Below are positions 5,138 to 28,378 of a DNA stretch of 54,205 nt, in pieces. A program made the translations under genes and the position numbers. Source of the stretch: Micavibrio sp. (GTDB taxonomy: Bacteria > Pseudomonadota > Alphaproteobacteria > Micavibrionales > Micavibrionaceae); NCBI GenBank assembly GCA_002695035.1, contig NZNU01000037.1, positions 1 to 54,205 on the forward strand, read 5' to 3'. Below the pieces are notes generated by a model. That model did not search any database, was not told where the DNA came from, and saw nothing but the letters and a program-made list of their open reading frames with translations. Every line of letters begins with the position of its first letter. The stretch's first letter is position 1.

Positions 5138-5166
5138 AAAATATAACAAATTATTTATTATGTCAA
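5138..5166 (-). promoter_or_regulatory. sigma70-like promoter of the methyltransferase
   Basis: On the minus strand TTGACA (5166-5161), 17 bases, TATTTT (5143-5138), then six bases to ATG 5131. A perfect -35 box and no Shine-Dalgarno; predicted leaderless. Confidence 0.6.
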
Positions 5167-12676: not shown

Positions 12677-15604
12677 CTATTTTCCTTTTAAAGCCTCTTC
12701 AACCAGACGGGTCTGTTCCTCAACATGCTTGCTGTGCAAACCAGTCGCGGGTGCTGCCGCCGCCTCACGTCCGACATAGCGGGCGCGTGTATTTTTCAGC
12801 TTGGCCTCAGTTAGAACCTCTTCTAAAAGTGGATCTGTGAAGAACCAGTATCCCTGGTTTTTCGGCTCTTCCTGACACCAGATGAATTCAGCATTTTTAT
12901 ACTGGGAAAGCTCCTCAACAAGCGCTTTATGCGGGAACGGGTAAAGCTGTTCAACACGCAAGATAAGGACATCATCAATGCCTAGCTCTTCACGTTTTTC
13001 AAACAGATCATAATAAACCTTACCCGTACAAAGAATAACGCGCTTCATTTTCTCCGGTTTGACAAGATTATCCATGGCATCATCCCATAGAACCCTGTGG
13101 AATGTGCTGCCTTCCGTCATCATAGACGCAGGTGATACAGCCAATTTATGACGCAGCAGTGATTTTGGCGTCATAATAATCAAAGGCTTCCTGAAATCAC
13201 GGTGCATCTGGCGACGCAATGCGTGGAAATAGTTCGCAGGCGTTGTCAGGTTACAAACCTGCATATTGTCTTCCGCACAAAGTTGTAAGAAACGCTCAGG
13301 CCTTGCGGAGGAGTGTTCAGGCCCCTGCCCTTCAAACCCATGTGGCAGCAACATTGTCAAACCCGACATACGCAGCCATTTAGTCTCGCCAGAGGCTATG
13401 AACTGGTCAATGATAACCTGCGCTCCGTTCACAAAGTCTCCGAATTGCGCTTCCCAGCATACCAATGTATTCGGATCTGACAGAGAGTATCCATATTCAA
13501 AGCCAAGAACCGCAAATTCCGACAAAGGGGAATCATGGAATTCAGCATTTGGCTGACCATCTTTTACGTGTTGCAGGGGGATGTATTTTTCTTCTGTTTT
13601 TTGGTCATATAAAATTGCGTGGCGCTGTGAAAATGTTCCACGACCCACATCCTGACCGGAAAGACGTACAGCAAAATTTTCATCCAGCAATGTTCCAAAG
13701 GCTGCGGCTTCTGCAGTGGCCCAGTCAAACCCTTCACCACTTTCAAACATCTTTGCCTTGGCTTTAAGCTGGCGGTCAATTTTTGAATTCAGGTTGAAAT
13801 CATCCGGAACTGTGGTCAGGGTTTCACCGACACGCTTTAACGTCTTTTTGCTAACAGCCGTATTTCCGCGTCGCGCATCACCCGATGCCGTTTTAAGTCC
13901 CGACCATGCACCTTCCAGCCAGTCGGCCTTATTCGGTTTATAGCTTTTCGTGGCTTCAAATGCTTTCTCAAGATATTCGTTAAACTCAGCCATCATTTCA
14001 TCGGCTTCATCGTCCGAAATGACACCCTCTCCCATCAGGCTTTGCGCATATTGTGAGCGTGTTGTTTCCTGACCCTTAATCTTTTTATACATGATTGGCT
14101 GTGTGAAGGATGGTTCGTCACCTTCGTTGTGACCGTGGCGGCGGTAGCACATCATATCAATCACGATGTCTTTTTTAAATTCCTGACGGAATTCAGTGGC
14201 AATCCGCGCGACATGAACAACCGCTTCAGGGTCATCTCCATTTACATGGAAGATAGGTGCAGAAAGCATCTTTGCAACATCTGTCGGATAAGGTCCTGAG
14301 CGTCCGTATTTCGGCATTGTGGTAAAGCCGATCTGGTTATTAATAACAATATGAATTGTTCCGCCGACACGATAGCCGGGCAGTTCTGATATCATAAGTG
14401 TTTCCGCAACAACACCCTGACCCGCAAAGGCAGCGTCCCCGTGGAGAAGCAAAGGCAAAATCTCGCTGGATTCTTTATCGTCAATTTGCACCTGTTTGGC
14501 ACGAACTTTACCGATAACAACCGGGTTCACACATTCAAGGTGAGACGGGTTGGCTGTCAAAGACAGGTGAATTGTATTGCCGTCAAAGTCACGATCTGTC
14601 GATGTTCCTATATGGTATTTCACATCACCGGAGCCTTGAACATTATCGGGATTGGAAGGTTTGCCCTGAAACTGTGCAAAAAGCGCGGTAAAAGGCATAC
14701 CCATAACATTTGTCAATACGTTAAGGCGACCACGGTGGGCCATGCCGATGACAATTTCTTTTAATCCCATCTGACCACCACGTTTCATGATCTGCTCAAT
14801 TGCAGGGATTAGGGATTCACCCCCATCAAGACCAAAGCGTTTTGTGCCTGTGTATTTGGTATTTAAAAACTTCTCCAGCCCTTCTGCCGCAGTCAGTCTT
14901 TGCAAAATGGCACGTTTTCCGTTTTCGGTAAAATCAGTGTGGTTGCGAGGGGCCTCAATACGCTTTTGTATCCAGGCCTTTTCTTCCGGATCTGTCAGGT
15001 GCATAAACTCAACACCTATTGTTCCGCAATATGTCTCACGAAGGATATTTAAAATTTCGCTCAATGTTGCGTAATCACGCCCCAAAACGCCATTAATAAA
15101 TATTTCACGGTTATAATCACTGCTGGTGAAGCCATAATGCCCGGGATCAAGCTCAGGGTAATCCTTCGTCTCCTTTAATTCCAGCGGATCAAGGTGAGAT
15201 ATGAGATGACCACGCACCCTGTAAGCACGGATCAGCATCAGAGCGGCTATAGAATCAGAGGCCATACTCTGCAACTCTTCAGTAGAAAGCCCATCAGGTG
15301 CGTTGATATTTGCGGGCTTATTTTGGCCTTCCATCACTGTTGCCACATCATCTTCAGCTGACATATGCGCAAAACTGCGATTACCGCGCTTGTTCTCAGA
15401 TGGCGTCCAGCTTGCTCCGTTCAACTCGTGCAAAAGCGCGGCCTCATCATCATTTAAATCACCGAAAAAATCGCTCCAGCTTTTATCAACCAAATTGGCG
15501 TTTACCTTATATTGCGCATAAAGATGCGCGATATATTCGGCATTCACCCCGTTTAGAAACATGGATATATCTTTGGTTTTTGAAGCAGAAGACGATGAAG
15601 ACAT
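12677..15604 (-). CDS. sucA: 2-oxoglutarate dehydrogenase E1 component
   Basis: 975 residues, typical for the thiamine-diphosphate E1 of the TCA complex. After the N-terminal SWSDFFGDL segment come the E1 motifs MAHRGRLNVL, LHGDAAFAGQGVVAE, INNQIGFTT, YRRHGHNEGDEP, and in the C-terminal half LLPHGFEGQGPEHSSARPER and WCQEEPKNQGYW. It decarboxylates 2-oxoglutarate and succinylates the lipoyl arm of SucB. AAGG sits nine bases before ATG 15604. Upstream on the same strand are two paralogous small proteins (15673-16825), 68 bases from the sucA start, which may share its transcript. Confidence 0.97.
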   Translation of the reverse strand: MSSSSSASKTKDISMFLNGVNAEYIAHLYAQYKVNANLVDKSWSDFFGDLNDDEAALLHELNGASWTPSENKRGNRSFAHMSAEDDVATVMEGQNKPANINAPDGLSTEELQSMASDSIAALMLIRAYRVRGHLISHLDPLELKETKDYPELDPGHYGFTSSDYNREIFINGVLGRDYATLSEILNILRETYCGTIGVEFMHLTDPEEKAWIQKRIEAPRNHTDFTENGKRAILQRLTAAEGLEKFLNTKYTGTKRFGLDGGESLIPAIEQIMKRGGQMGLKEIVIGMAHRGRLNVLTNVMGMPFTALFAQFQGKPSNPDNVQGSGDVKYHIGTSTDRDFDGNTIHLSLTANPSHLECVNPVVIGKVRAKQVQIDDKESSEILPLLLHGDAAFAGQGVVAETLMISELPGYRVGGTIHIVINNQIGFTTMPKYGRSGPYPTDVAKMLSAPIFHVNGDDPEAVVHVARIATEFRQEFKKDIVIDMMCYRRHGHNEGDEPSFTQPIMYKKIKGQETTRSQYAQSLMGEGVISDDEADEMMAEFNEYLEKAFEATKSYKPNKADWLEGAWSGLKTASGDARRGNTAVSKKTLKRVGETLTTVPDDFNLNSKIDRQLKAKAKMFESGEGFDWATAEAAAFGTLLDENFAVRLSGQDVGRGTFSQRHAILYDQKTEEKYIPLQHVKDGQPNAEFHDSPLSEFAVLGFEYGYSLSDPNTLVCWEAQFGDFVNGAQVIIDQFIASGETKWLRMSGLTMLLPHGFEGQGPEHSSARPERFLQLCAEDNMQVCNLTTPANYFHALRRQMHRDFRKPLIIMTPKSLLRHKLAVSPASMMTEGSTFHRVLWDDAMDNLVKPEKMKRVILCTGKVYYDLFEKREELGIDDVLILRVEQLYPFPHKALVEELSQYKNAEFIWCQEEPKNQGYWFFTDPLLEEVLTEAKLKNTRARYVGREAAAAPATGLHSKHVEEQTRLVEEALKGK

Positions 15605-15672
15605 GTAAGTACCTTATACGTTATATTTTTTTAAAAGAGTTTATATAAAAAACCCGTTACAGGGCTTAATTT

Positions 15673-16230
15673 TTATACATTACGTAAGGCATTTGCAAGC
15701 TCTGACAACGCATTATCTTCAGCCGGGGAAATATTCATTTCCTCGTAAAGTTTGCGATTGGAAATGCGCGCAAAGAAATTGGCAACTTTTTCAACAAACA
15801 CGTCATAATCCATGCCATGATTAACGTCGGTATGATATTCGTCTTCCTGATAAGCTTTTGCAACATCTGTTGCGACCTGCATACACGCGCCTTTGAAAGC
15901 ATCGAGTTCTTGCTGGGATGCGGCAGCCTTTAACATGCGGGCAACAATTGCGGCTTCTGCGACAGCATTATCCGATTCCGCCTTCCATTGCGCATGATAT
16001 CCGGACTGAGATACGGCATTGTCTGCCATTTCCTTTATCAAAGGAAACGCTTTATAGGTTTTTGCCATCTTCTCAAGAACATTATAAAGCTGGGCCTCTT
16101 CAGCCACGTCAGAGCCATGGTCACTTTCACCGGCATCATCGGCATGCGACATCCATATACCTATCTTATAAAAAAGGCCGCTAAGTTGAAATTGCTGGTC
16201 GGGTGTGAATTTTGAAAGTTCGAGTGTCAC
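15673..16230 (-). CDS. Orphan protein, TerB-like paralogue A
   Basis: 185 residues, mostly alpha-helical, no signal peptide. It is homologous to the next gene upstream: FYKIGIWMSHADDAGESDHG matches PYRVGLWMSLADGTGGNASD, AFKGACMQVATDVAKAYQED matches AFKSNLIEIGYNVALAYREF, and the C-termini share NISPAEDNALSELANAL / NISAREREALRQLGESL. The acidic loop after a hydrophobic helix resembles the TerB/tellurite-resistance fold in pattern only; the assignment is inference. It begins 22 bases after the stop of its paralogue and precedes sucA by 68 bases. Confidence 0.6.
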   Translation of the reverse strand: MTLELSKFTPDQQFQLSGLFYKIGIWMSHADDAGESDHGSDVAEEAQLYNVLEKMAKTYKAFPLIKEMADNAVSQSGYHAQWKAESDNAVAEAAIVARMLKAAASQQELDAFKGACMQVATDVAKAYQEDEYHTDVNHGMDYDVFVEKVANFFARISNRKLYEEMNISPAEDNALSELANALRNV

Positions 16231-16252
16231 TATACTGCCTTATATTTTCTCA

Positions 16253-16825
16253 CTAAGCCGCCTCACGTATTTCACGCCCAAGGCTTTCGCCCAATTGGCG
16301 CAGAGCCTCGCGCTCACGAGCGGAGATATTTAAAAGCTCAGCATTAGATTTCATGGCATTTCCACTTATGAAAGCCGAAAACCGTTCTTTCCAAACAACC
16401 CAGTAAGTATTGAGTCTCGACAAAAATCCTGATCTGTAGTCAAATTCGCGGTAAGCAAGCGCAACATTATAACCAATTTCAATAAGATTGCTTTTAAACG
16501 CCTCAATGTCCCCGCGCTCCAATTTTCCATTCAGGGCGGCTATAACATCACGGCATTCTTTAGGAACATCCTCAATATTCTCGACCCAGTTGATCCAGTC
16601 CCCGCGCTCCTTCATACATTCTTCCATAAGTGCTTGCACAAACTGGGATTTCACAAAATCTTCTGAATAAGCCATAATAAGCGTTTCCAACGCCTTTTGC
16701 TCTTCCTTGTCAGATGCATTGCCACCAGTCCCGTCTGCAAGAGACATCCATAATCCCACACGGTAAGGCAGACGAATGGCGGATTGTCTTATTTTCGGGT
16801 CTAGATCTTTGAGAGTCAGCGACAT
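16253..16825 (-). CDS. Orphan protein, TerB-like paralogue B
   Basis: 190 residues from ATG 16825. It shares order and spacing of conserved blocks with the following gene (see 15673-16230), so the two arose by tandem duplication. Distinct features are a basic insert around FLSRLNTYWVVWKERFSAF and the C-terminus REIREAA. The frame reaches back to an ATG at 16879, but a promoter (TTGCAG, 17 bases, TATACT) ends six bases before 16825 and covers that extension, so 16825 is preferred and the mRNA is predicted leaderless. It is divergent from the 874-residue orphan, the two ATGs being 84 bases apart. Confidence 0.6.
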   Translation of the reverse strand: MSLTLKDLDPKIRQSAIRLPYRVGLWMSLADGTGGNASDKEEQKALETLIMAYSEDFVKSQFVQALMEECMKERGDWINWVENIEDVPKECRDVIAALNGKLERGDIEAFKSNLIEIGYNVALAYREFDYRSGFLSRLNTYWVVWKERFSAFISGNAMKSNAELLNISAREREALRQLGESLGREIREAA

Positions 16826-16831
16826 AAAACC

Positions 16832-16860
16832 AGTATAGCAACGCCGGAGCGACCCTGCAA
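16832..16860 (-). promoter_or_regulatory. Promoter of the TerB-like pair (possibly also sucA)
   Basis: Minus strand: TTGCAG (16860-16855), 17 bases, TATACT (16837-16832), then six bases to ATG 16825. No Shine-Dalgarno. Back to back with the promoter at 16873-16902. Confidence 0.6.
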
Positions 16861-16872
16861 TCTTGAAAATTA

Positions 16873-16902
16873 TTGACATAATGAAGTAAAAGGGGATATA
16901 AC
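16873..16902 (+). promoter_or_regulatory. Promoter of the 874-residue orphan
   Basis: TTGACA (16873-16878), 18 bases, TATAAC (16897-16902), then seven bases to ATG 16910. A perfect -35 box; predicted leaderless. Only 12 bases separate it from the opposing -35 box. Confidence 0.65.
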
Positions 16903-16909
16903 TTCCTCC

Positions 16910-19534
16910 ATGGTAAATGGTATTTCACGTTACAATAAACCTCGCATAGCAAACGAAGCTCAAAAAGTTTCTCAGCCGTGGTTCGAAAAAAATGAACATG
17001 GGCAAGCAGTCATGCGCTCCGTGGCAAAGCCTGCTGTTCTTAGCGTGGATAATGCCGTCACTTATTTTGAGGCAGTTCAGATTGATCCCTCAAAAGACCA
17101 ATGGACTATAAAAGAGCACTATTTATCTTCCGAGACAGGTGAATTTATAGATAACGAAAATGATCTTGCTGTGATTGGCCAACATATGACGCATATTCGC
17201 CGATGCAACTTTGACGCAGCCCTTCTTCATATTACGGATTTTGAAACATCAGTTCCTAAAGATGCAAAATATGAGGAGGCTGTGGAATCCTTAGGCAAAC
17301 GTCATTACATATATGCTGCTGAAGGTACAGGAGACTGGTGGTTTGATGTAAACAATAACGCAGTCTCAATCGAAGAAGATCCCGAGCTTACACGCATTAC
17401 AAATAGCAATAAATTACGCGCAGCACGCCGTGCCGAAGACGCCAGAAAACGAGTATCCAACCCGGAAGAGCTTCTTCGATCGAAAAATGCCGTCATCCTG
17501 AAGGAAAGTTTCTTGCCGGCAATACGACCTATCGAAACAGGTAATTTTCTGACACGCATTTTTGATAGCGAAAAACGCGCAGTTTATAAACTACAAAAAG
17601 CCGTCAAAGAAGCAGTTGATGTAAATGACTTCAAAACATATCTCTCCTTGTTGAAGCAAGCAGAACCAGCACATATCTCACTTTTCCCCCCTGAACATGT
17701 AGCAAAATTTCTAGACTTATCTGAAAATGACAAAATTTGTGTCAGCAAAGCATTTACGACCGATCGTATGTGGGAATATTCATATAAAAAAGGGCCACTT
17801 GACCTTGAAGACAAAACCACTCTTCTTCTTGAGGCCTCCAAATTTGATCATCTGGCACGAGCTTTAGGTAATTATAAAATTCATCTTCAGGACGATTGGC
17901 TTAAAAACATGTCGACCCTGCCCGAACTTTATATGGATAAAGCGATGAAACTCTATCTGGAGGCACCGGAATCAGAGCTAAAAACAGAATTCTTCTCCAC
18001 GAACATGATGCGTATGCTTTGTACCCATATAGCCGAGACCAAATCACCAAGAATTTTGCCCGAACATAAAGGGAAAGAGCTTATTAGATTTATAGAGATG
18101 ATCAACAACCGCGCAGATCATGAAAACATATTATTTTCTGCGAAAGATACTAATGAAAAAGGCAGAGATTATTCAAATTTATGCTTCAAACTCATGCGCA
18201 GGCTACATACTTCTCTAGGTGATTATCGCGGGATATCTGCTTATGACATGTTGGGTTTTTATAAAAATTGTGCAAAAAATCCTAAACAGCGCGAAGCGTT
18301 AAGCAATTTTTTTGTCGTGCATGAGCAAATTTTTGGTTCTGATCCTGCGGATTCTTTTTACGCCATTACAGAAAATTCAAAATCATCCAATCGAACTTAT
18401 TTTATAGCTCGCGATGAAGATAAAGGTTTTATGCCTCAACAGCTTGTAGATTATTTTTACGCACAGGAAAAAGTCAGCGCGATGCAAGAATTAGATGCAT
18501 ATCTGGACAGTTTGGCAACTGAAGGCAGCCCAAATTACATTTCTTTTGATAATCAATACGCAACCAGCGGTAATAAGGCTCAACGGCAGTTGGAAATCAA
18601 GGAAGACGGGATTGAAACCCCAAAGAAAATACAACTTTCTGAGACACAAAATGCACACACGAATTTGGCGCAGCCACAACAAGAAGACAAGGCATTAATG
18701 GCTCCTCCACGCAAAGAAACGAAGCTCTCAAAGTGGTTCAACTCTATGAAGATAGAGAGCGCCAGAAAACTGCTTTTTCAGGATTTAAAAGGCGGGAAAT
18801 TTGATTATCAACCTTTCAAGAAACTTGCTGATGAGCTTGAAAGGCCTGATGCTCACGAAATATTTCAAGATGATTTACTCTTCCAGATTTTTGAGAAAGG
18901 GATAGTCAAAAATCAGGAAAATCCAAAGCCTATTAAATACTGCCTCAAATTTACAGATACACGCGCTTTCAAAGACTTAATTATAGGCTCACCTGTTATC
19001 GCAGGAAAATTCAGAACTTTTATTAACGAGTTTTTAATTGAAAAAACCAGAAATCCAGTATCTTCTTACGAAGCAAGCACCGCAGGTTTGGTTAAACAAA
19101 TCGAGGAAACAGATTTTCTTGAAGGTTTTATTTCAGAAGACACGAAGCGACGCATGTCCGCAATTCTAATTGCCAGAGATGGATCTTTTGGAGTTTTAAG
19201 TCATTTAGAGCTATCCAGTAGCATTGATTTTGATGACGATTTCAAAGATTTAATCATTGAAGAAGCCCCGCAATATTCAAATGAAAATGGTGTCGATAGA
19301 GCTCTTAGAAACTATGAAGAAGCTCTTCCTGAAATTGACAGATATTACACTGAACGCAGCGCCTCATTCGATAAGGACAGTCACTCGTCCATTTTTCAAA
19401 TACCAAATGAGGGTCAGACAAGCATACCTCAAATTGAATCTAAAACAGCTTCTTCTTTGATATCCGCAACAAGCATGGACAACACAGAGATTGTAAAAGC
19501 CCCTAACGCCAAGCTTGATGTATTTGAGCTTTAG
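16910..19534 (+). CDS. Large orphan protein (874 residues)
   Basis: A soluble, charged protein without signal peptide or membrane segment and with no family I recognise. Residues 1-200 contain predicted strands (DQWTIKEHYLSSETGEF; DNDLAVIG-like), about 200-560 look helical, 560-640 are low-complexity and Gln/Pro/Lys-rich (AQPQQEDKALMAPPRKETK), and a second helical block follows from LSKWFNSMKIESARKLLF to the C-terminus, which is Ser/Thr-rich. A two-lobed protein with a flexible hinge is likely. It is transcribed against sucD and sucA from a near-consensus promoter; the ATG is seven bases from the -10 box. Its stop is 11 bases from the end of sucD. Confidence 0.65.
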   Translation: MVNGISRYNKPRIANEAQKVSQPWFEKNEHGQAVMRSVAKPAVLSVDNAVTYFEAVQIDPSKDQWTIKEHYLSSETGEFIDNENDLAVIGQHMTHIRRCNFDAALLHITDFETSVPKDAKYEEAVESLGKRHYIYAAEGTGDWWFDVNNNAVSIEEDPELTRITNSNKLRAARRAEDARKRVSNPEELLRSKNAVILKESFLPAIRPIETGNFLTRIFDSEKRAVYKLQKAVKEAVDVNDFKTYLSLLKQAEPAHISLFPPEHVAKFLDLSENDKICVSKAFTTDRMWEYSYKKGPLDLEDKTTLLLEASKFDHLARALGNYKIHLQDDWLKNMSTLPELYMDKAMKLYLEAPESELKTEFFSTNMMRMLCTHIAETKSPRILPEHKGKELIRFIEMINNRADHENILFSAKDTNEKGRDYSNLCFKLMRRLHTSLGDYRGISAYDMLGFYKNCAKNPKQREALSNFFVVHEQIFGSDPADSFYAITENSKSSNRTYFIARDEDKGFMPQQLVDYFYAQEKVSAMQELDAYLDSLATEGSPNYISFDNQYATSGNKAQRQLEIKEDGIETPKKIQLSETQNAHTNLAQPQQEDKALMAPPRKETKLSKWFNSMKIESARKLLFQDLKGGKFDYQPFKKLADELERPDAHEIFQDDLLFQIFEKGIVKNQENPKPIKYCLKFTDTRAFKDLIIGSPVIAGKFRTFINEFLIEKTRNPVSSYEASTAGLVKQIEETDFLEGFISEDTKRRMSAILIARDGSFGVLSHLELSSSIDFDDDFKDLIIEEAPQYSNENGVDRALRNYEEALPEIDRYYTERSASFDKDSHSSIFQIPNEGQTSIPQIESKTASSLISATSMDNTEIVKAPNAKLDVFEL

Positions 19535-19535
19535 G

Positions 19536-19560
19536 AAAAAGCCGCTTAAGCAGCCTTTTT
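19536..19560 (-). terminator. Hairpin terminator of sucD
   Basis: AAAAA (19536-19540) and TTTTT (19556-19560) enclose GCCGC/GCAGC, which pair with one bulge and one mismatch (G-U in minus RNA). The element overlaps the sucD stop codon and ends in TTTTT on the minus strand. Confidence 0.5.
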
Positions 19561-20427
19561 AATCGCCTCAGCAACTGCTTCACCAAGTCCGGCTGGTGTT
19601 TCAGAAACAACAAATCCGCATTCGCGCATTTTCTTTGTTTTGGCCTCGGCTGTATCTTCTGCTCCACCGATAATCGCACCGGCATGACCCATACGTTTAC
19701 CTGGAGGGGCTGTCACACCCGCGATAAATCCGGCAATCGGTTTTTTCGTATCAAGTGAGGCATAATATTCGGCAGCTTCAATTTCAGCTGTTCCGCCGAT
19801 TTCACCAATCATCAATATGGCCTCTGTTTCCGGATCATCCATAAACATTTCAATGCAATCAATGAAGTTTGTGCCGTTTACCGGATCACCACCAATACCG
19901 ATACATGTTGACTGACCTAATCCCACAGCAGCGGTCTGGGCTACAGCTTCGTAAGTCAATGTCCCGGAACGTGAAACAATGCCGACCTTACCACGCTTAT
20001 GAATGTGACCCGGCATAATACCGATCTTGCATTCATCAGGCGTGATCACACCCGGGCAATTTGGACCGACAAGGCGTGAATTTGAGCCTTCAAGAGCGGC
20101 TTTCACCTTAATCATATCCTGAACAGGAATCCCTTCAGTAATGCAGATAATCAGCTCAATTTCAGCGTCTATCGCCTCAAGAATTGCATCTGCGGCAAAC
20201 GGTGGCGGCACGTAAATAACAGAGGCATTGCAGCCTGTTTGCGCCTTGGCCTCGGCAACCGTATTAAATACAGGTAGCCCAAGATGTTCTGTTCCGCCCT
20301 TTCCTGGAGTTACACCGCCAACCATATTCGTACCATATTCCATAGCCTGTTCAGAATGGAACGTACCTTGCGATCCGGTAAAGCCCTGGCAGATAACTTT
20401 GGTGTTTTTATCAACGAGTACTGACAT
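19546..20427 (-). CDS. sucD: Succinyl-CoA synthetase alpha subunit
   Basis: 293 residues. The N-terminal CoA-binding Rossmann domain has [19 protein letters not shown] and [11 protein letters not shown]; the C-terminal domain has [22 protein letters not shown] and the active-site histidine in [11 protein letters not shown] that carries the phosphoryl group. With SucC it converts succinyl-CoA to succinate with nucleotide triphosphate formation. GGAG precedes the ATG. sucC and sucD normally overlap or abut; here a 145-residue orphan and an opposite-strand lytic transglycosylase lie between them. Confidence 0.97.
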
Positions 20428-20455
20428 TTTTGAGATAACTCCTTAAAACTTTATG

Positions 20456-20893
20456 CTAAATATCATTTGCCGCAATGTATTGCGGACGTGAATAAGTCAT
20501 AGCATTTGAGGATATATTTACAAGCCCCAAATTCTCACAATCCGCATGAAATGTTGAGCGTCCCGTTTTGCGGATAAGGCTGTCAATTGTCTCCTGATCG
20601 CTTTCAACGGTTAGAGAAAAGCTGTCACGCTCCCCGCTTGGCTTACCGATAGACCCGACAACCTCACCATAAAGACCAAGCTTACCACACACTTTTCCGA
20701 ACAGTTTTGTAATATCGTGCGGTGCGTTTGGCGCTGCCTTTTCCTCAAAAGACAAACGTAAGGTCAGATCAATATTGCCGGGGTTTCCTTTATAACACCG
20801 CCCGCCCCTTTCAATCGCTTTATAAGCGGTCTCGGCCATTTCATCGCGACGCGCCTGCGGGTTGTTTTTTCTGAGCTGGGTAACTGACCCCAT
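20456..20893 (-). CDS. Orphan protein between sucC and sucD
   Basis: 145 residues, soluble, no family recognised. The start is ATG 20893, which has a full GGAGG seven bases upstream; the frame runs back to 20956 without a better start. The N-terminus (MGSVTQLRKNNPQARRDEMAE) is basic and helical; the middle (NIDLTLRLSFEEKAAPNAPH ... SFSLTVESDQETIDSLIRKT) reads as an alpha/beta domain. It ends 28 bases before the sucD ATG on the same strand and is probably co-transcribed with it, so its promoter may drive sucD. Confidence 0.6.
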   Translation of the reverse strand: MGSVTQLRKNNPQARRDEMAETAYKAIERGGRCYKGNPGNIDLTLRLSFEEKAAPNAPHDITKLFGKVCGKLGLYGEVVGSIGKPSGERDSFSLTVESDQETIDSLIRKTGRSTFHADCENLGLVNISSNAMTYSRPQYIAANDI

Positions 20894-21038
20894 GAAAACC
20901 TCCAATTTTATTATTTTCTTTTTTAAAAGATTAGCGTATTTAAAGCGCCAATTCAAAACGATAATTCAGTTTTTTCTTGCTTATGTCAATATAATTGATG
21001 TATAAATATTTCCATAATAAATAAGCGTGGGTGAGTTT

Positions 21039-22514
21039 ATGACAGATAATACAGTTCAGATAGAAAAAGAAGCTAAAGCAACTTCAAGCCAGGATGGTCG
21101 CTGGGTCATCAAAAGAGACCCCCGAAATTCTTTTCAGAGACTTTGGGAAGATGCGACCAAAGTACAAAAAGGTGCCATGCTGGGCTTAGCCGCTTTAGGT
21201 GGTTGCGCAGCGATTGCGGGCACAGGTGATCCCGATGCCGAAAGATACAGTGTGAGAGTAGATTTGCCTGCACCGACAAAAGGAGAATTTGTGTGTGGTG
21301 TGTATCACGGTGAAAGGTCAGATTATATCATCAAGAATCAGGCTGTGTGTGATGACCTTGAATATATAGTGCCCCAGCGCAATACAACTGTGAGAATTGG
21401 CGAACAATTTCAGGTCGCGGGACTAAACCGCGGAAAATTCTATGCACGCCTTGCTGGTGAAGATAAAGGATATGTTGTCCCACAGGAAAACTACCTTGCC
21501 ATTGTAGAGGCCTATCTGACCAGCATGGGTAATGATGACTATGCAAACCCGGTTCCTTTCGACTTTCTTATTTCAAAATGGAATCTGGAATCAAGACTTG
21601 GCACTTTGCAGTCTTCGCCCTACAGCTCGGCCGAAGGTTTAAACCAGTTTATTGCGGGTACAGGAATACAATTACTTCGCGAAGCCGGCGACCTTTATGG
21701 TTATGATGATGAAAAAGCAATAGCCGACAGAATTTTCAGAGAGCACGGCTCTGATTACGGGCGCGCTTCCAAGAGCTCTGAATATCAGTCTATGCATAAA
21801 CGTGTTTTCCGCGACCCATATATGAGCGCGGTAATTGGTATTCACAACACGATCAGAGGCCTGCAGAAGTTACAGAAGCTGGTCGATGACGGTGAGATGA
21901 TTACCCCTAATCGGGATGAAAACGGCAATTATTATTTAACTGCAAAAGATGCCTATATCGGGCACTTTCTGGGAGCCAATGAGAGAGGAGCGGTCAAATT
22001 TTTTGAAAAGCTAAGAACGCATGCTGCGCATAATATGTGCGATATTTTTGAAGGTGGTGTCTGCAACCGTAACAAATATTTCTTTGTGATTGATGGCGAT
22101 GACGAGCAGCTTATTCAAATGAAAAAGGACAAAGATTATGGACTAGGTAAACATACAAAGCTGATCAGAACTCATAACGGGGAATCCTATGTTGTGCCTG
22201 ATCGCCAGTTTGACGGCTATAAAATGAAGGAGCGCCAGATTGGCACAAACAGCAATGGCGACCCTGTTTACGGCAGAGTGCGCGTTCCTCAGATTCATCT
22301 TAGTGTTGAAGAGTTTTACGAGCGCATGGGCACACGTTGGGGCTTTACAGATGAGCGTATGCCGGATTTGAGCGAATGGAATCCACGCGAATTCGTACCA
22401 ACGGGGAGTGTGGAATATCCATCAGAAAGCTTTGAAGTTGCGCAAGACAATCTCAGACCTTATCGTAAGGCAACCAGATATGTCACAGCAGACAGCGTAA
22501 CTTTTACAATGTAG
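21039..22514 (+). CDS. Membrane-anchored lytic transglycosylase-like protein
   Basis: 491 residues. A 40-residue cytoplasmic tail precedes one membrane segment (about 43-62, KGAMLGLAALGGCAAIAG). An SH3-like region follows (VRIGEQFQVAGLNRGKFYAR ... KGYVVP). The catalytic domain has FLISKWNLESRLGT (Glu184 as the likely acid), SSAEGLNQFIAGTG, and the later DAYIGHFLGANERGAVKFF, matching the AYLAHFLGPGGA-type block of alphaproteobacterial SLT-fold enzymes. It should cleave peptidoglycan glycan strands. ATG 21039 is preferred to GTG 21027 by the position of GTGAG. It lies between sucC and the sucD unit on the opposite strand and ends in a strong terminator. Confidence 0.7.
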   Translation: MTDNTVQIEKEAKATSSQDGRWVIKRDPRNSFQRLWEDATKVQKGAMLGLAALGGCAAIAGTGDPDAERYSVRVDLPAPTKGEFVCGVYHGERSDYIIKNQAVCDDLEYIVPQRNTTVRIGEQFQVAGLNRGKFYARLAGEDKGYVVPQENYLAIVEAYLTSMGNDDYANPVPFDFLISKWNLESRLGTLQSSPYSSAEGLNQFIAGTGIQLLREAGDLYGYDDEKAIADRIFREHGSDYGRASKSSEYQSMHKRVFRDPYMSAVIGIHNTIRGLQKLQKLVDDGEMITPNRDENGNYYLTAKDAYIGHFLGANERGAVKFFEKLRTHAAHNMCDIFEGGVCNRNKYFFVIDGDDEQLIQMKKDKDYGLGKHTKLIRTHNGESYVVPDRQFDGYKMKERQIGTNSNGDPVYGRVRVPQIHLSVEEFYERMGTRWGFTDERMPDLSEWNPREFVPTGSVEYPSESFEVAQDNLRPYRKATRYVTADSVTFTM

Positions 22515-22530
22515 GTGAATAATCCCAATT

Positions 22531-22570
22531 AAAAAAAAGCGCGCTGGATATTTCCGACGCGCTTTTTTTT
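22531..22570. terminator. Bidirectional terminator between the transglycosylase gene and sucC
   Basis: A perfect 13-base stem: AAAAAAAAGCGCG (22531-22543) with CGCGCTTTTTTTT (22558-22570), loop of 14 bases. It provides a U-run in both directions for two convergent genes. Confidence 0.9.
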
Positions 22571-22589
22571 CGTATATATAATTTTAGAC

Positions 22590-23958: not shown

Positions 23959-23987
23959 TTGATTTTAATGCGCCCATCCTTTATACT
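23959..23987 (+). promoter_or_regulatory. Promoter of the 238-residue orphan
   Basis: TTGATT (23959-23964), 17 bases, TATACT (23982-23987), seven bases to ATG 23995. No Shine-Dalgarno. Confidence 0.6.
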
Positions 23988-23994
23988 TCGAATT

Positions 23995-24711
23995 ATGAAT
24001 AGTACTGCCCAAACCAGTTTTGCAAAAGAACTTGATCACCGCGATGCCGGATTTTTGCCACATGGCACTGTCGCCTCGGAAACACCTTCGCTTTTAAACA
24101 ATGATGTTTGGAGCCGTATTTTTACAGATTTCCGTTCCGGTGGTGTTGTCCAAGGGCGCACCGTTGGTTCACATTCTATTGAAGGTCGTGCCGGCGCTGA
24201 TAATCAGGGCACGGATGCTGAAAAGGCCGCGTTTTTAAAACGCGCCCAGATGCAAAGAATATTTGCCTCAACCGCTATAGGCGCTCAGTACTTCACGCCG
24301 CAAAATATTGCAATAAGCAGTCATGCCTTGGAAGATTTGCAAGACGCGTTGGAAAATCTGGAGCTAAGCTCGGGCATAAAAGTACGTGATCCTGAAATTA
24401 CCGATGCGGTAGATAGCAAAATTGAGGAATATGATATTACACCTGAAGATCTGGGTGTATCGCCAAATGCCGCACCTCAAGATGCAGATTCAATGATGGA
24501 AAACTTACAACGCAACAGACCTGAATTATTTAATCAGGGCGCGCCTGAGGTAAATAGGCCCTGTATCACTGCACGCGAAATCGAAAGCATGTGTGATGGT
24601 CAGGGCTATGACCCTGAAATGTCTTCACTGTTCGTATATGGTGTGATCAGACGCGAAGCCGTTACAGAAGTTGCCCCCAAGCCCGAATTGGCCGGCCCCG
24701 CACCGTCATAA
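23995..24711 (+). CDS. Orphan acidic protein (238 residues)
   Basis: No recognised family, signal peptide or membrane segment. It begins MNSTAQTSFAKELDHRDAG; residues about 45-75 are Gly/Ser-rich (FRSGGVVQGRTVGSHSIEG), the middle is helical (KRAQMQRIFASTAIGAQYF; SSHALEDLQDALENLELS), and the C-terminus is acidic and proline-rich. ATG 23995 is chosen because the promoter ends seven bases before it and overlaps the upstream extension to 23959. It opens a run of four plus-strand genes ending with two peptidoglycan hydrolases, each apparently with its own promoter. Confidence 0.55.
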   Translation: MNSTAQTSFAKELDHRDAGFLPHGTVASETPSLLNNDVWSRIFTDFRSGGVVQGRTVGSHSIEGRAGADNQGTDAEKAAFLKRAQMQRIFASTAIGAQYFTPQNIAISSHALEDLQDALENLELSSGIKVRDPEITDAVDSKIEEYDITPEDLGVSPNAAPQDADSMMENLQRNRPELFNQGAPEVNRPCITAREIESMCDGQGYDPEMSSLFVYGVIRREAVTEVAPKPELAGPAPS

Positions 24712-24811
24712 TACTCTAAGTTATAAAGCCACTTATTTTCCTTTATTTAACAATATTTTCAGTGGTTTATCAGCGTTAACTTATGTTAACTAAAATTTTA
24801 CCTATTTTCCA

Positions 24812-24817
24812 TATACT
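24812..24817 (+). promoter_or_regulatory. -10 box of the coiled-coil orphan gene
   Basis: TATACT (24812-24817) with six bases to ATG 24824. No good -35 lies at 16-18 bases; TTAACT at 24786-24791 is 20 bases away. Geometry agrees with the leaderless pattern of the window. Confidence 0.4.
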
Positions 24818-24823
24818 AATTGT

Positions 24824-25963
24824 ATGAGTTTTAATACTAGTCATGCATATGAAGAAGAGAGTTTCGCCGCATCTGTCGATGGCGGCTTCTTTGCCAAGCA
24901 TAACGTTATGGTGAATGATTTTGCCACAGTATCCGGGCAGGGCTTTGACGCCGAGGCTGCCGAATTAACAAATGCAGGCTCGAGCTCGCGTATTAGCGAC
25001 CACGTTAATCAAAGAGATTTTGATAACATGAATGACTTTGGAGCCAATCCCGACGTTCTGGCAGGAGACTCTTTAAATTATACCGCCCATGAAGCTGGTG
25101 AAGTTGCCATGGGTGATGAAGGCAGACTTAAGAAAAATTATGATGATGAAATTGAGCGTGTTTTTGAGAAAAGCGCTGACACGATGGAAGAATTCTGGAC
25201 AAACATAATCGAGAATGCCAACCGAGGCCCTTCTGAAGCCTTTTATAATGAGATGAGCACAGGCATTCAAAATTATAAAAATTATCTAGATGAACAGGCT
25301 AGACTCGCAGCCGAGGCCGCCCGACAAGCTGAGATCGAACGTCAAATGGAAATGCAGCGCCAAATGGAAGCGCAGCGTCAAGCCGAGTTAGAACGTCAAC
25401 AGCAGGAGATGCACAAAAACAACCACGACATTTCCAATGGTGAAAGCCAGTACTTTACTTTAGGCAATGGTTTGAATAATGATCAACAAGCACTTAAACG
25501 CGCCAATCCAGACGCTGAAGAAAACGAATCTGACCTTTCCAGAGGGAGGCGTTATGGTCCTCACGGAAAAGGAAACCGCCGCTGGAAACATGATGGTAAC
25601 GAAGCAGAGCAAGACGCTTCTGTAAGCCAAAAGTCTGAAAATACAGTTGCGGACTCGGCTGATAGCCCGCCTAGTCAAACTTTACAATCACCGGAAAGAT
25701 ACACTTCTTATGCAGATTCCATTGGTATAGGCTCAGCGGCTCAAGCCCCTGTGAATATAAATGTCATTGCCACCGAAGACCTGAAAATTGATCTTCCTGA
25801 AATTGATCTAAGCAGTAGTTTTGCAGAAAGTGTTACGCCTTCTGCCCAACCAGTTGCCCCTGCAGCGGCCCAATCTTCTACTCCAACAGAAGCAAGCACA
25901 TCTGTAGCGCAGGATCATGAGGAATTAAAGGTTTCATCACCCGCAGTTCCCGCAATTGGCTAA
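24824..25963 (+). CDS. Orphan protein with central Gln/Glu/Arg coiled coil
   Basis: 379 residues without signal peptide or recognised family. Residues 1-150 are acidic (MSFNTSHAYEEESFAASVDG ...), about 155-198 form a charged helix with a repeated ERQMEMQRQMEAQRQAELE-type pattern, a coiled coil. The C-terminal half is disordered in appearance: arginine-rich (DLSRGRRYGPHGKGNRRWKH) then Ser/Ala/Pro-rich (SAQPVAPAAAQSSTPTEAST). Such a build is common in secreted substrates, scaffolds and polar localisation factors, but none can be assigned. There is no Shine-Dalgarno. About 210 bases of very AT-rich sequence without a gene separate it from the M23 peptidase gene. Confidence 0.55.
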   Translation: MSFNTSHAYEEESFAASVDGGFFAKHNVMVNDFATVSGQGFDAEAAELTNAGSSSRISDHVNQRDFDNMNDFGANPDVLAGDSLNYTAHEAGEVAMGDEGRLKKNYDDEIERVFEKSADTMEEFWTNIIENANRGPSEAFYNEMSTGIQNYKNYLDEQARLAAEAARQAEIERQMEMQRQMEAQRQAELERQQQEMHKNNHDISNGESQYFTLGNGLNNDQQALKRANPDAEENESDLSRGRRYGPHGKGNRRWKHDGNEAEQDASVSQKSENTVADSADSPPSQTLQSPERYTSYADSIGIGSAAQAPVNINVIATEDLKIDLPEIDLSSSFAESVTPSAQPVAPAAAQSSTPTEASTSVAQDHEELKVSSPAVPAIG

Positions 25964-26138
25964 GCCTCTACTTTTGTATTTTCTTTAATTATATATTTAC
26001 GGATTTATACGCATACTTGATTGATATATCTGTGCGATTTTCATTGCTGCAAATATAAAAATTTATAAACAAATTTAATGATTACATAATTACACTAAGT
26101 ATAATAAGTAACTGAAAATTAATACTTTTTGAATATAA

Positions 26139-26168
26139 TTGGTAATGAATATAAGAGTTCTATAGAAT
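26139..26168 (+). promoter_or_regulatory. Promoter of the M23 peptidase gene
   Basis: TTGGTA (26139-26144), 18 bases, TAGAAT (26163-26168), six bases to ATG 26175. No Shine-Dalgarno. The preceding 25964-26138 is AT-rich and holds nothing else I can identify. Confidence 0.5.
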
Positions 26169-26174
26169 ATAAAT

Positions 26175-27284
26175 ATGGCTACAACAGCAACACAAGAAAG
26201 AGATCCACAAATACAGCAACCCGCACCTGCGGTTGTTTCTGCACCGCCTGCAGCTTCAATCCGTCCTGAAACTGCGGTTGCAAGCCCTCCTCCCGCATCC
26301 TCTATCCGGCAACAACAGCCCGATGCAGAGGCTCAAATGCGTAACGATAGAATGGACAGGCATAATGAACATGATCAGGCGACTTTGCGCCAGCGTGTTC
26401 AAGAAGAAGCTGAGACCAGAGCACGTGAAGAAGGTCGTGAGATTACACCTGAAGAAACAGCACTTCTAGATGAATCAGTAGAACGTACTCAGCAAGTGGC
26501 TGATGGTATGCCTGATATGGTGACCGAGAATATCGGTATGGGTATTTTCATGACAATTATTATGGAAGTGTTTGGCATGGGTCAGGCAAACGGTAACAGT
26601 TTTGAAGGCATGGACATAGAAGGCCTTATTGGTCAGATGTTCTCCTCACTTATTCCCGGCCTTGGTATTGCAGGTGCTGGTATGGCCGGTCCAGGACATG
26701 ATGGACATGATCATGACGGTCCTTCAATAGAAGGGGGAAGCACCTTCTCTTCAGATGGTAATGTAACATTACAATTCCCTATAAAGGGTGATTATCGCAC
26801 AGGCCAAGATGTAGTACACCGTGGTGGATCACGAATGCATGAGGGAGGGGATTACCCTGTTGCTTCAGGCACTGATCTTTACGCTGCCGCTGAGGGGCGT
26901 GTACATAACGTAGGTTACAATGCCTCAGGCTGGGGTAAATATATTGATATTGATCATGGCAACGGCGTATTTACACGTTATGCTCACTTAAGTGATGTTG
27001 ATGTTAGAGAAGGACAAACTGTAGGCCCGGACACAGTTATTGGCCAAAGTGGCAGTACAGGGCGCTCTGATGGGCCTCATCTTCACCTTGAAGTAGGAAT
27101 TGCTGATAGTAATGGCAGATATCAGATTGTAAGCCCGGCAAGCGCTATGGGTCAGAATCTTGGTGACAGCTCAGTCAGACAGGGTCTGATTAATGAAGCA
27201 AGAGAGTCATATCAGCAAGCAGGACTTGGTCACAAACAAGGTATGAACGCAACGCCAGAATACCACGGCCCGGTAATATCTTAA
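26175..27284 (+). CDS. M23 (LytM-type) peptidase-domain protein without signal peptide
   Basis: 369 residues. The C-terminal M23 domain (about 195-325) is complete: zinc ligands in MHEGGDYPV (His222, Asp226) and PHLHLEVG (His304), with His302 and His271 (RYAHLSDV) as the usual catalytic histidines. It should cut peptidoglycan stem-peptide cross-links. The N-terminus is unlike secreted LytM proteins: Ala/Pro/Gln-rich with an internal repeat (PPAASIRPET, PPPASSIRQQ), a charged helix, a methionine-rich hydrophobic stretch (118-135, IGMGIFMTIIMEVFGMG) and a Gly/His/Asp-rich linker (173-182). With no Sec signal, export would need another route. GH108 follows on the same strand. Confidence 0.85.
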   Translation: MATTATQERDPQIQQPAPAVVSAPPAASIRPETAVASPPPASSIRQQQPDAEAQMRNDRMDRHNEHDQATLRQRVQEEAETRAREEGREITPEETALLDESVERTQQVADGMPDMVTENIGMGIFMTIIMEVFGMGQANGNSFEGMDIEGLIGQMFSSLIPGLGIAGAGMAGPGHDGHDHDGPSIEGGSTFSSDGNVTLQFPIKGDYRTGQDVVHRGGSRMHEGGDYPVASGTDLYAAAEGRVHNVGYNASGWGKYIDIDHGNGVFTRYAHLSDVDVREGQTVGPDTVIGQSGSTGRSDGPHLHLEVGIADSNGRYQIVSPASAMGQNLGDSSVRQGLINEARESYQQAGLGHKQGMNATPEYHGPVIS

Positions 27285-27316
27285 CCTATTGAAAAATATA
27301 GATTTTTTAAGTTGCT

Positions 27317-27346
27317 TTGCATTTATTAGGAAAGATACGCTAAAAT
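27317..27346 (+). promoter_or_regulatory. Promoter of the GH108 gene
   Basis: TTGCAT (27317-27322), 18 bases, TAAAAT (27341-27346), six bases to ATG 27353. No Shine-Dalgarno. Confidence 0.55.
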
Positions 27347-27352
27347 ATAAAC

Positions 27353-28378
27353 ATGGTACAAGAAACAGTTAAATCACAAGCTCTAGGCACTACCAGCCAT
27401 GCCGCGTTGGCCATAGGCAATGCTGGGGGTATTTCCGGTAACGGAATAACAGAGAGATTTTCTAATCCTGCAAGACAAGGTGCCTTGGATTTGAACCAAG
27501 AAGCTGAAGCAACAAATACGAATAATTTCAATATGGTTAGCGGAGCAAAACCATATTCTCAGGAGCCAAGCGCAAATACAGGCCGTGAAGTTTCACGCGA
27601 GGATGAAGGTTATGTCCTTCTTATGCTTCTTGGACATTACTACGAATCCACTGCCGAATTGAATGGGCAGAATTTAGACCCTGAACAGATCGAGCAAATG
27701 ATCAAAGATCTGGAAGGTATAGAGCTTGATTCTAATGGTGATATTGACCTTACATCAGCCTCTACTTCCGCCGCTCTAGCAACTGGTGTAACCTCTGCCG
27801 CTGCAGGTCTTTCTGCTGCTCAGCTCAGAGAAAACGGTGCATTTGACGGTAGTTACGATGAAGCCTTTGACAAGGTTCTGGCTCATGAAGGTGGTTGGCA
27901 TGATGGAAAATATGACGCCGGAGGAGCCACAGTGTTCGGTATAGCGTCTAAATACCACCAAGGAACATATAATGAAGTAATGGGTCTTTTGAGATCAGGC
28001 GACCGTGAAGGAGCACTTGAGGTAACAAAAGATTTCTATAAGCGTGAATTTTGGGATAAGGCAGGAATTGAAAATATTTCTGATCCAGCCGCCCGTCTAG
28101 TTGCATTTGACACGGCGGTGAATGCCGGTGTTGGTAAAGCCAGACAACACATTGCTACAGCCTCCAGAAATGACGGGGTAGCAGATGGTAATGAGTTGGT
28201 CGATTTAAAAAGAAATCATTATGCAAGTCTAAACGCCACGGGTAAGGCTGTTTACACAAGAAATTATAGAGGTTGGATGAATCGTTGTGACAGTCTTCAG
28301 GAAGATGTAGATCAGGTTTATGCCTCTGCCAGAACTCCTGCCTTGGCTGCTAATGAGCCGCAGTTGGCACTCGGATAA
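27353..28378 (+). CDS. Glycoside hydrolase family 108-type muramidase
   Basis: 341 residues. The C-terminal domain matches GH108/secretion-activator lysozymes: AFDKVLAHEGGWHDGKYDAG with the catalytic Glu in HEGG (Glu179), GGATVFGIASKYH, FYKREFWDKAGI, and VAFDTAVNAGVGKA, followed by a PG-binding_3-like tail (LVDLKRNHYASLNATGKAVY ... YRGWMNRCD). It should cleave the MurNAc-GlcNAc bond. Residues 1-160 are unusual for the family: polar, Ala/Asn/Ser-rich, with a helix around YVLLMLLGHYYESTAELNG, and no signal peptide. Phage endolysins of this family are shorter. Own promoter; the gene ends before the convergent HTH-like pair. Confidence 0.85.
   Translation: MVQETVKSQALGTTSHAALAIGNAGGISGNGITERFSNPARQGALDLNQEAEATNTNNFNMVSGAKPYSQEPSANTGREVSREDEGYVLLMLLGHYYESTAELNGQNLDPEQIEQMIKDLEGIELDSNGDIDLTSASTSAALATGVTSAAAGLSAAQLRENGAFDGSYDEAFDKVLAHEGGWHDGKYDAGGATVFGIASKYHQGTYNEVMGLLRSGDREGALEVTKDFYKREFWDKAGIENISDPAARLVAFDTAVNAGVGKARQHIATASRNDGVADGNELVDLKRNHYASLNATGKAVYTRNYRGWMNRCDSLQEDVDQVYASARTPALAANEPQLALG

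Follow-up and report, generated by a model that had tools for sequence, protein, structure and literature searches.

Do two genes that diverge from a gap of 84 bases draw on promoters that act on one another, or is each promoter independent of its neighbour? The question is raised by a 54,205-nucleotide stretch of Micavibrio sp. DNA (Alphaproteobacteria; assembly GCA_002695035.1, contig NZNU01000037.1; hereafter the window), in which ATG 16825 on the minus strand opens TerB1, the first of two tandem TerB-like genes, and ATG 16910 on the plus strand opens the gene of an 874-residue orphan protein, leaving 16826-16909 between them. We conclude from the sequence that both promoters predicted in this gap are probably real, as a sister species keeps both box pairs at near-identical spacing, and that they are probably independent and leaderless—each transcript would begin at its ATG or one to two bases off. 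The divergent arrangement itself is ordinary for this genome.

Box pairs in the gap

The sister species used for comparison throughout is NAT608, the metagenome-assembled genome named “Alphaproteobacteria bacterium isolate NAT608” (NZVS01000078.1). The elements of the gap and the genes on its two sides are:

16873-16878, plus strand: TTGACA, -35 box of the predicted orphan promoter; same sequence in the sister, with a spacer of 18 nucleotides here and 17 there
16897-16902, plus strand: TATAAC, -10 box of the predicted orphan promoter, 7 nucleotides 5' of ATG 16910; the same box lies 9 nucleotides before the ATG in the sister
16855-16860, minus strand: TTGCAG, weak -35 box of the predicted TerB1 promoter, matching TTGACA at 3 of 6 positions; kept, with a 17-nucleotide spacer in both species
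16832-16840, minus strand: TGC-TATACT, extended -10 element of the predicted TerB1 promoter (TATACT at 16837-16832), 6 nucleotides 5' of ATG 16825; 8 nucleotides in the sister
16861-16872: the 12 A/T-rich bases that separate the two -35 boxes, conserved for the most part
16253-16825, minus strand: TerB1, 190 residues, an all-helical TerB-like protein
16910-19534, plus strand: the orphan, 874 residues, antisense to the suc cluster; conserved parts at about 1-550 and 605-850 around a variable linker

A first-pass annotation of the window had already described this crowding, and a direct reading of the sequence bore out all of its figures, from the positions and spacers to the 84-base gap and the 12 bases between the -35 boxes. 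Three points escaped it: the -10 boxes abut the start codons, the TerB-like genes are part of a conserved suc cluster, and the orphan, besides lying antisense within that cluster, is lineage-specific. On the plus strand, TTGACA-18-TATAAC matches the consensus at 11 of 12 positions (the -10 box ends in C, not T), in agreement with the near-consensus promoter that had been proposed. On the minus strand, TATACT matches at five of six positions and carries TGC directly 5' of it; the resulting extended -10 element fits the weak -35 box there.

Both box pairs recur in the sister species, as TTGACA-17-TATAAC and TTGCAG-17-TATACT, their -35 boxes being 13 bases apart, which upholds the proposal of two divergent promoters. 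Recent divergence does not account for boxes kept so exactly, since fourfold-degenerate synonymous sites are well diverged between the window and the sister (39-50% identical in eight of 12 genes and 61-78% in the other four). Coding constraint does not account for them either. The TerB1 open reading frame (ORF) holds an in-frame ATG further upstream, at 16879, and the frame is open in the sister too; within this extension, insertions and deletions shift the frame, and the residues differ between the species while the DNA blocks persist. The blocks are thus not kept for coding, and ATG 16825 is the credible start for TerB1.

It might still be argued that the boxes are chance matches in A/T-rich DNA and that the true starts lie elsewhere. 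A generic sigma-70 scan of 14000-22000 speaks for this reading, as it counted 16 sites against 16.3 expected in shuffled sequence and listed neither TTGACA/TATAAC nor TTGCAG/TATACT; the two are absent because the scan requires T at position 6 of the -10 box and at least 4/6 in the -35 box. TTGACA/TATAAC is the sole site of at least 11/12 in the 54-kb window, of which 10 Markov copies give 1.2 on average. Simulations of intergenic DNA put such a site on the right strand of an 84-base gap with a probability of about 0.002, falling to about 0.00025 when the -10 box must additionally lie 5-9 nucleotides before the ATG, and an extended -10 element (at least 5/6) at that place on the other strand has a simulated chance of about 0.003. 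With chances of about 0.002-0.003 per side, and with both promoters kept in the sister, we regard a coincidental origin of the boxes as very improbable.

Start codons, crowding and independence

In the window, 7 bases (plus) and 6 bases (minus) separate the -10 box from its ATG, and in the sister 9 and 8 bases do so, all within the range of 6-9 nucleotides that we took to mark a leaderless gene; a start some 6-8 bases past a -10 box would fall at or beside the ATG. By eye, no Shine-Dalgarno-like sequence was seen before either ATG of the sister. Across 405 kb sampled from the genome, of which 351 kb lie outside the window, -10-like boxes were found 6-9 nucleotides before 37 of 531 candidate ATGs, both sites here included, against about 22 expected from the mean of 10-60 nucleotides.

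The minus-side promoter can also be followed beyond the two species. We examined 20 relative loci, chosen from 36 matching genomes that include the window's own and the sister. For 18 TerB1 starts—those of the window, the sister (L027) and 16 of the 20 relative loci, with L035, L039, L045 and L046 excluded for unclear start or context—a -10-like box lies at most 60 nucleotides before the gene in 11, window and sister included, where 3.4 would be expected. A third genome of the genus, which does not carry the orphan, has such a box 7 nucleotides before the TerB1 ATG, so the TerB1 promoter seems not to depend on the orphan.

These observations bear on the suggestion of the first-pass annotation that RNA polymerase at one promoter could block the other, or that a common regulator acts between them. 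The crowding gives this some appeal: the -35 boxes are 12-13 bp apart in both species, the stretch between them is mostly conserved, and a published account describes divergent Escherichia coli starts at a distance of 64 bp as partly overlapping (PMC4469952). However, a search for an inverted repeat or operator palindrome in 16800-16930 found none in the window and, in the sister, one 7-nucleotide pair made of A and T only. Small divergent gaps are, moreover, common in this genome: among the divergent neighbouring ORF pairs of the 405-kb sample, 21 of 50 have gaps of at most 107 bp, a count in which pairs were called mechanically from the furthest start, two of the 21 overlap, and this pair figures with 30 bases, measured from ATG 16879. 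Finally, co-regulation with the orphan is not ancestral, given that relatives lacking the orphan also have a -10-like box before TerB1. We therefore consider it unlikely that the promoters are coupled, whether by polymerase interference or by a regulator between the -35 boxes that would switch between the TerB pair and the orphan. An Rfam search over 15500-17200 returned one row far below the cut-off, which we took as chance.

Two observations from elsewhere in the window touch on the same kinds of element. At 23959-28378 on the plus strand, four successive genes (of 250 residues, of 379 residues, an M23 peptidase and a GH108 protein) each have a -10 box 6-7 nucleotides before an ATG, and the sister shares TTAA-N6-TTAA ahead of the 379-residue gene. 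The motif TTGACATAA stands upstream of genes in four copies in the window, at 5166 (minus), 12196 (minus), 16873 (plus) and 20989 (minus), with one more copy in the 351 kb sampled elsewhere; of the window copies, three recur in the region fetched from the sister, which does not span the fourth. A regulon marked by TTGACATAA was considered and set aside as weak, the total of 5 showing no excess over the roughly 6.9 expected.

The orphan protein and its origin

Among the 104 genomes of its family, the orphan was found in two, those of the window and the sister, and a pattern search of genome contigs, covering close relatives only, recovered it in the sister alone. The protein is 68% identical in amino acids to its orthologue, half of the fourfold-degenerate sites are identical, and the gene appears from this comparison to be under purifying selection. 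Conservation is uneven along its length: residues 51-150 are the most conserved (84-90%), residues 551-600 are only 12% identical to the orthologue and residues 601-650 are 48% identical, which supports the division at about residues 560-640 that had been proposed from the window alone.

The description of the orphan as lacking a recognisable domain likewise survived five library searches, whose best row reached E 0.14. In PHROGs, the best match (E 0.14) has no known function and is not credible, and the best Pfam row, a restriction-endonuclease-like domain over 39 residues at E 0.27, is no more so; NCBIfam, PADLOC, PDB sequences searched by profile, and viral contigs gave no match. A class-wide profile search of 385 genomes returned three weak partial matches (E 3e-4 to 0.007 per genome), and a separate search added two further weak rows (E 0.01 and 0.03). 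We rejected the class-wide matches as relatives of the orphan: the ORF of the best one, the one inspected, reads, by eye, as a TPR-like lipoprotein, and we take the similarity to be one of chance between helical repeats. Structure prediction, which had been put forward as a check, was informative in part. The model is mostly helical, but its mean predicted local distance difference test score (pLDDT) is 38.9, and only about residues 691-820 lie between 53 and 80; a Foldseek search with this model gave no E below 0.08, and its result was not used. By hydrophobicity, no segment looks like a membrane helix (the best mean over 19 residues is 0.89). The orphan is probably a soluble, mostly helical protein in two parts.

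A different gene stands behind the promoter and the start ATGGTAA in the sister, a paralogue of 509 residues (515 if counted from an upstream TTG), and the 850-residue orthologue of the orphan starts on the base right after the stop of that gene. The duplication is older than the split of the species, since identity is 26% between the paralogues and 68% between the orthologues. A second copy of the orphan was not found in the window's assembly, which is 95.65% complete. Most likely, then, the window lineage lost the first paralogue, and comparison of the two genomes suggests that the start of the orphan has taken over the promoter and first bases of the gene that disappeared.

The explanation that we consider likely as a whole joins these parts. 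Two independent sigma-70-type promoters would stand back to back in the gap, both giving leaderless mRNAs: one a TerB1-TerB2 mRNA, perhaps ending at a hairpin before sucA, and the other the mRNA of the orphan. The TerB1 promoter is probably the older of the two, because a -10-like box precedes TerB1 in many relatives without the orphan. The orphan genes would have entered the sucD-TerB1 junction in reversed orientation, in this genus, as two tandem paralogues on one promoter, and the window lineage would then have lost the first, so that the second came to be read from that promoter and start.

Several points weigh against this explanation. The gap as a whole is 72% identical to that of the sister, among the lowest values in a comparison of eight intergenic regions (71-93%, the gap included), and the case for the promoters thus rests on the positions of the conserved blocks and not on the overall level of identity. 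AAGGGG at 16890-16895 is a possible, if poorly placed, ribosome site, 14 nucleotides from ATG 16910 and so too far for a usual one. The genome-wide excess of leaderless-type spacings is modest and depends on predicted starts; the plus-strand -10 box has its final C, the minus-strand -35 box is weak, and transcription starts, like promoter strength, are predicted from sequence alone. The hairpin before sucA is weak (fold z only -1.7 and -1.4), and terminator-like sites over 14000-22000 are no commoner than in shuffles (8 against 8.9 expected). The loss of the first paralogue, for its part, is polarised only by divergence, with a third member of the genus that lacks both genes and a window assembly of the completeness given above.

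The TerB-like pair, the suc cluster and known systems

The minus-strand promoter leads into a cluster whose further features are:

15673-16224, minus strand: TerB2, 183 residues, a diverged tandem copy, 24% identical to TerB1
15650-15667, minus strand: weak terminator-like hairpin after TerB2 and before sucA (one found against 0.0 expected in 140 bases)
12677-15604, minus strand: the gene that we take, from its sequence, to be sucA (2-oxoglutarate dehydrogenase E1), downstream of the TerB-like pair
19546-20427, minus strand: sucD, whose stop faces the orphan stop across 11 nucleotides

The stem and loop of the hairpin after TerB2 are identical in the sister, yet the scan does not list it there. 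A profile of 38 members finds the TerB-like family, with one to four matches in each, in 98 of the order's 142 genomes; 96 of these belong to the 104 genomes of the window's family and two to the 38 others. (The family alignment, A5, excludes the first ORF of L039 and both ORFs of L046 for unclear start or context.) In the sister, as in 16 of the 20 relative loci, the TerB genes are flanked by sucD and sucA, all on the same strand; three of the other four have TerB near sucD or sucA, and one (L035) has neither in view.

We regard “TerB-like” as a fair label, with membership of the TerB family unproven: the structural matches are a lead and not proof. No Pfam TerB family was among the 25 of 40 families shown for the 38 members (E up to 1), which were ordered by member count and best E such that a match at the curated cut-off would be among them, and none was found for the two window proteins. 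The best of five AlphaFold models of TerB1 reached a pLDDT of 70 (the others 41-59), and Foldseek gave no match to it below E 1. Its best two structural matches are 2h5n (Z 6.7) and 2ou3 (Z 6.0), followed by a row at 4.1, values that, as the tool warns, may be chance for helical proteins and that rest on a model of modest confidence. Of the two, 2h5n (PG1108) is TerB-like, and 2ou3 is titled a tellurite resistance protein of COG3793. TerB1 is all-helical like these solved proteins, which are the top two rows of its structural matches, but it differs from them in sequence, being 10-12% identical and, as said, without a Pfam TerB match among those shown. The 38-member profile retrieved one row from PDB sequences, 1rtw, at E 0.019 over 65 profile positions.

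In a little-studied lineage, the promoter pair offers a clean and conserved candidate case of two leaderless promoters that face outward. The TerB-like pair, for its part, keeps its place between sucD and sucA in most relatives that we examined while unrelated antisense genes appear and vanish around it, and is a concrete starting point for asking about the role of TerB-fold proteins beyond tellurite resistance; it is the part worth following, and the orphan is for now a gene found in two genomes. A search for literature joining TerB, sucA and Alphaproteobacteria returned nothing. As a speculation to which we give little credence, the pair might be an unrecognised accessory of the 2-oxoglutarate dehydrogenase/succinyl-CoA synthetase step, retained next to the genes for it across one bacterial family, with the orphan family as a lineage-specific partner or counterpart on the facing leaderless promoter.

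How often other genes interrupt this cluster was counted in the 16 loci with sucC and sucA both in view (window, sister and 14 relatives). Eight of these have an antisense ORF of at least 200 residues between sucC and sucD, and four have one between sucD and TerB1; by phmmer the occupants are mostly unrelated to one another, except for a few pairs and a group around a 495-residue gene. In the window, that gene occupies 21027-22514 on the plus strand, between sucD with a 166-residue ORF on one side and sucC on the other, antisense to both, and has a weak transglycosylase match (PHROG 4067, E 0.012); several of the occupants between sucC and sucD look lysozyme-like by eye. In the relative L041 (3201-6618, minus strand), the sucD-TerB1 junction holds two antisense genes, of 312 and 813 residues, oriented as the orphan is and with no detectable similarity to it. 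A strong two-way terminator-like hairpin, at 22528-22572 between the 495-residue gene and sucC (z -5.6 and -5.7), has arms that are kept in the sister; the simple scan missed it, the loop being too long under its rules.

This layout resembles that of a non-contiguous operon, in which the suc genes would be co-transcribed through the antisense genes, whose mRNAs would act as antisense RNA on the metabolic operon. The orphan does lie on the opposite strand among suc genes, as the definition in the cited source has it (PMC7154746); antisense ORFs recur at the two junctions in the numbers just given; and no terminator-like site was found in 19400-19700, around the facing stops of sucD and the orphan. 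On the other hand, the strong hairpin between sucC and the 495-residue gene, its arms kept in the sister, makes co-transcription there unlikely, the sister has a terminator-like site just past sucD (0.4 expected), and TerB1 seems to own a promoter. We judge a non-contiguous operon quite improbable here. Relative to the system described under that name (PMC7154746), the likeness lies in opposite-strand genes interleaved with a metabolic cluster; the difference is that sucC is separated from the first antisense gene by a strong terminator-like hairpin, in a layout known from gene order.

Independent promoters, the reading we prefer, can be set beside three further systems. Shared bidirectional promoters, as described with overlapping -10 and start elements and divergent starts 7-25 bp apart (PMC10268837), are alike in that divergent transcription issues from one short region, but the predicted starts here are about 84 bp apart and the elements are separate, with two distinct -10 boxes. 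The close divergent promoters of E. coli at ilvY/ilvC, fepA/fes and appY (PMC4469952) are nearer in form, with promoters back to back and polymerase sites adjacent or touching; a regulator and supercoiling are described there, whereas the promoters here are predicted. A parallel in the host class is with alphaproteobacterial leaderless mRNAs, of which 375 are reported for Caulobacter crescentus (PMC4117421) and 119, as pairs of transcription start site and gene, for Zymomonas mobilis (PMC7566282). As in those reports, the predicted start falls at the ATG and a clear ribosome site is missing; here, the leaderless state is suggested by -10 placement and conservation, and two such promoters point apart within one gap.

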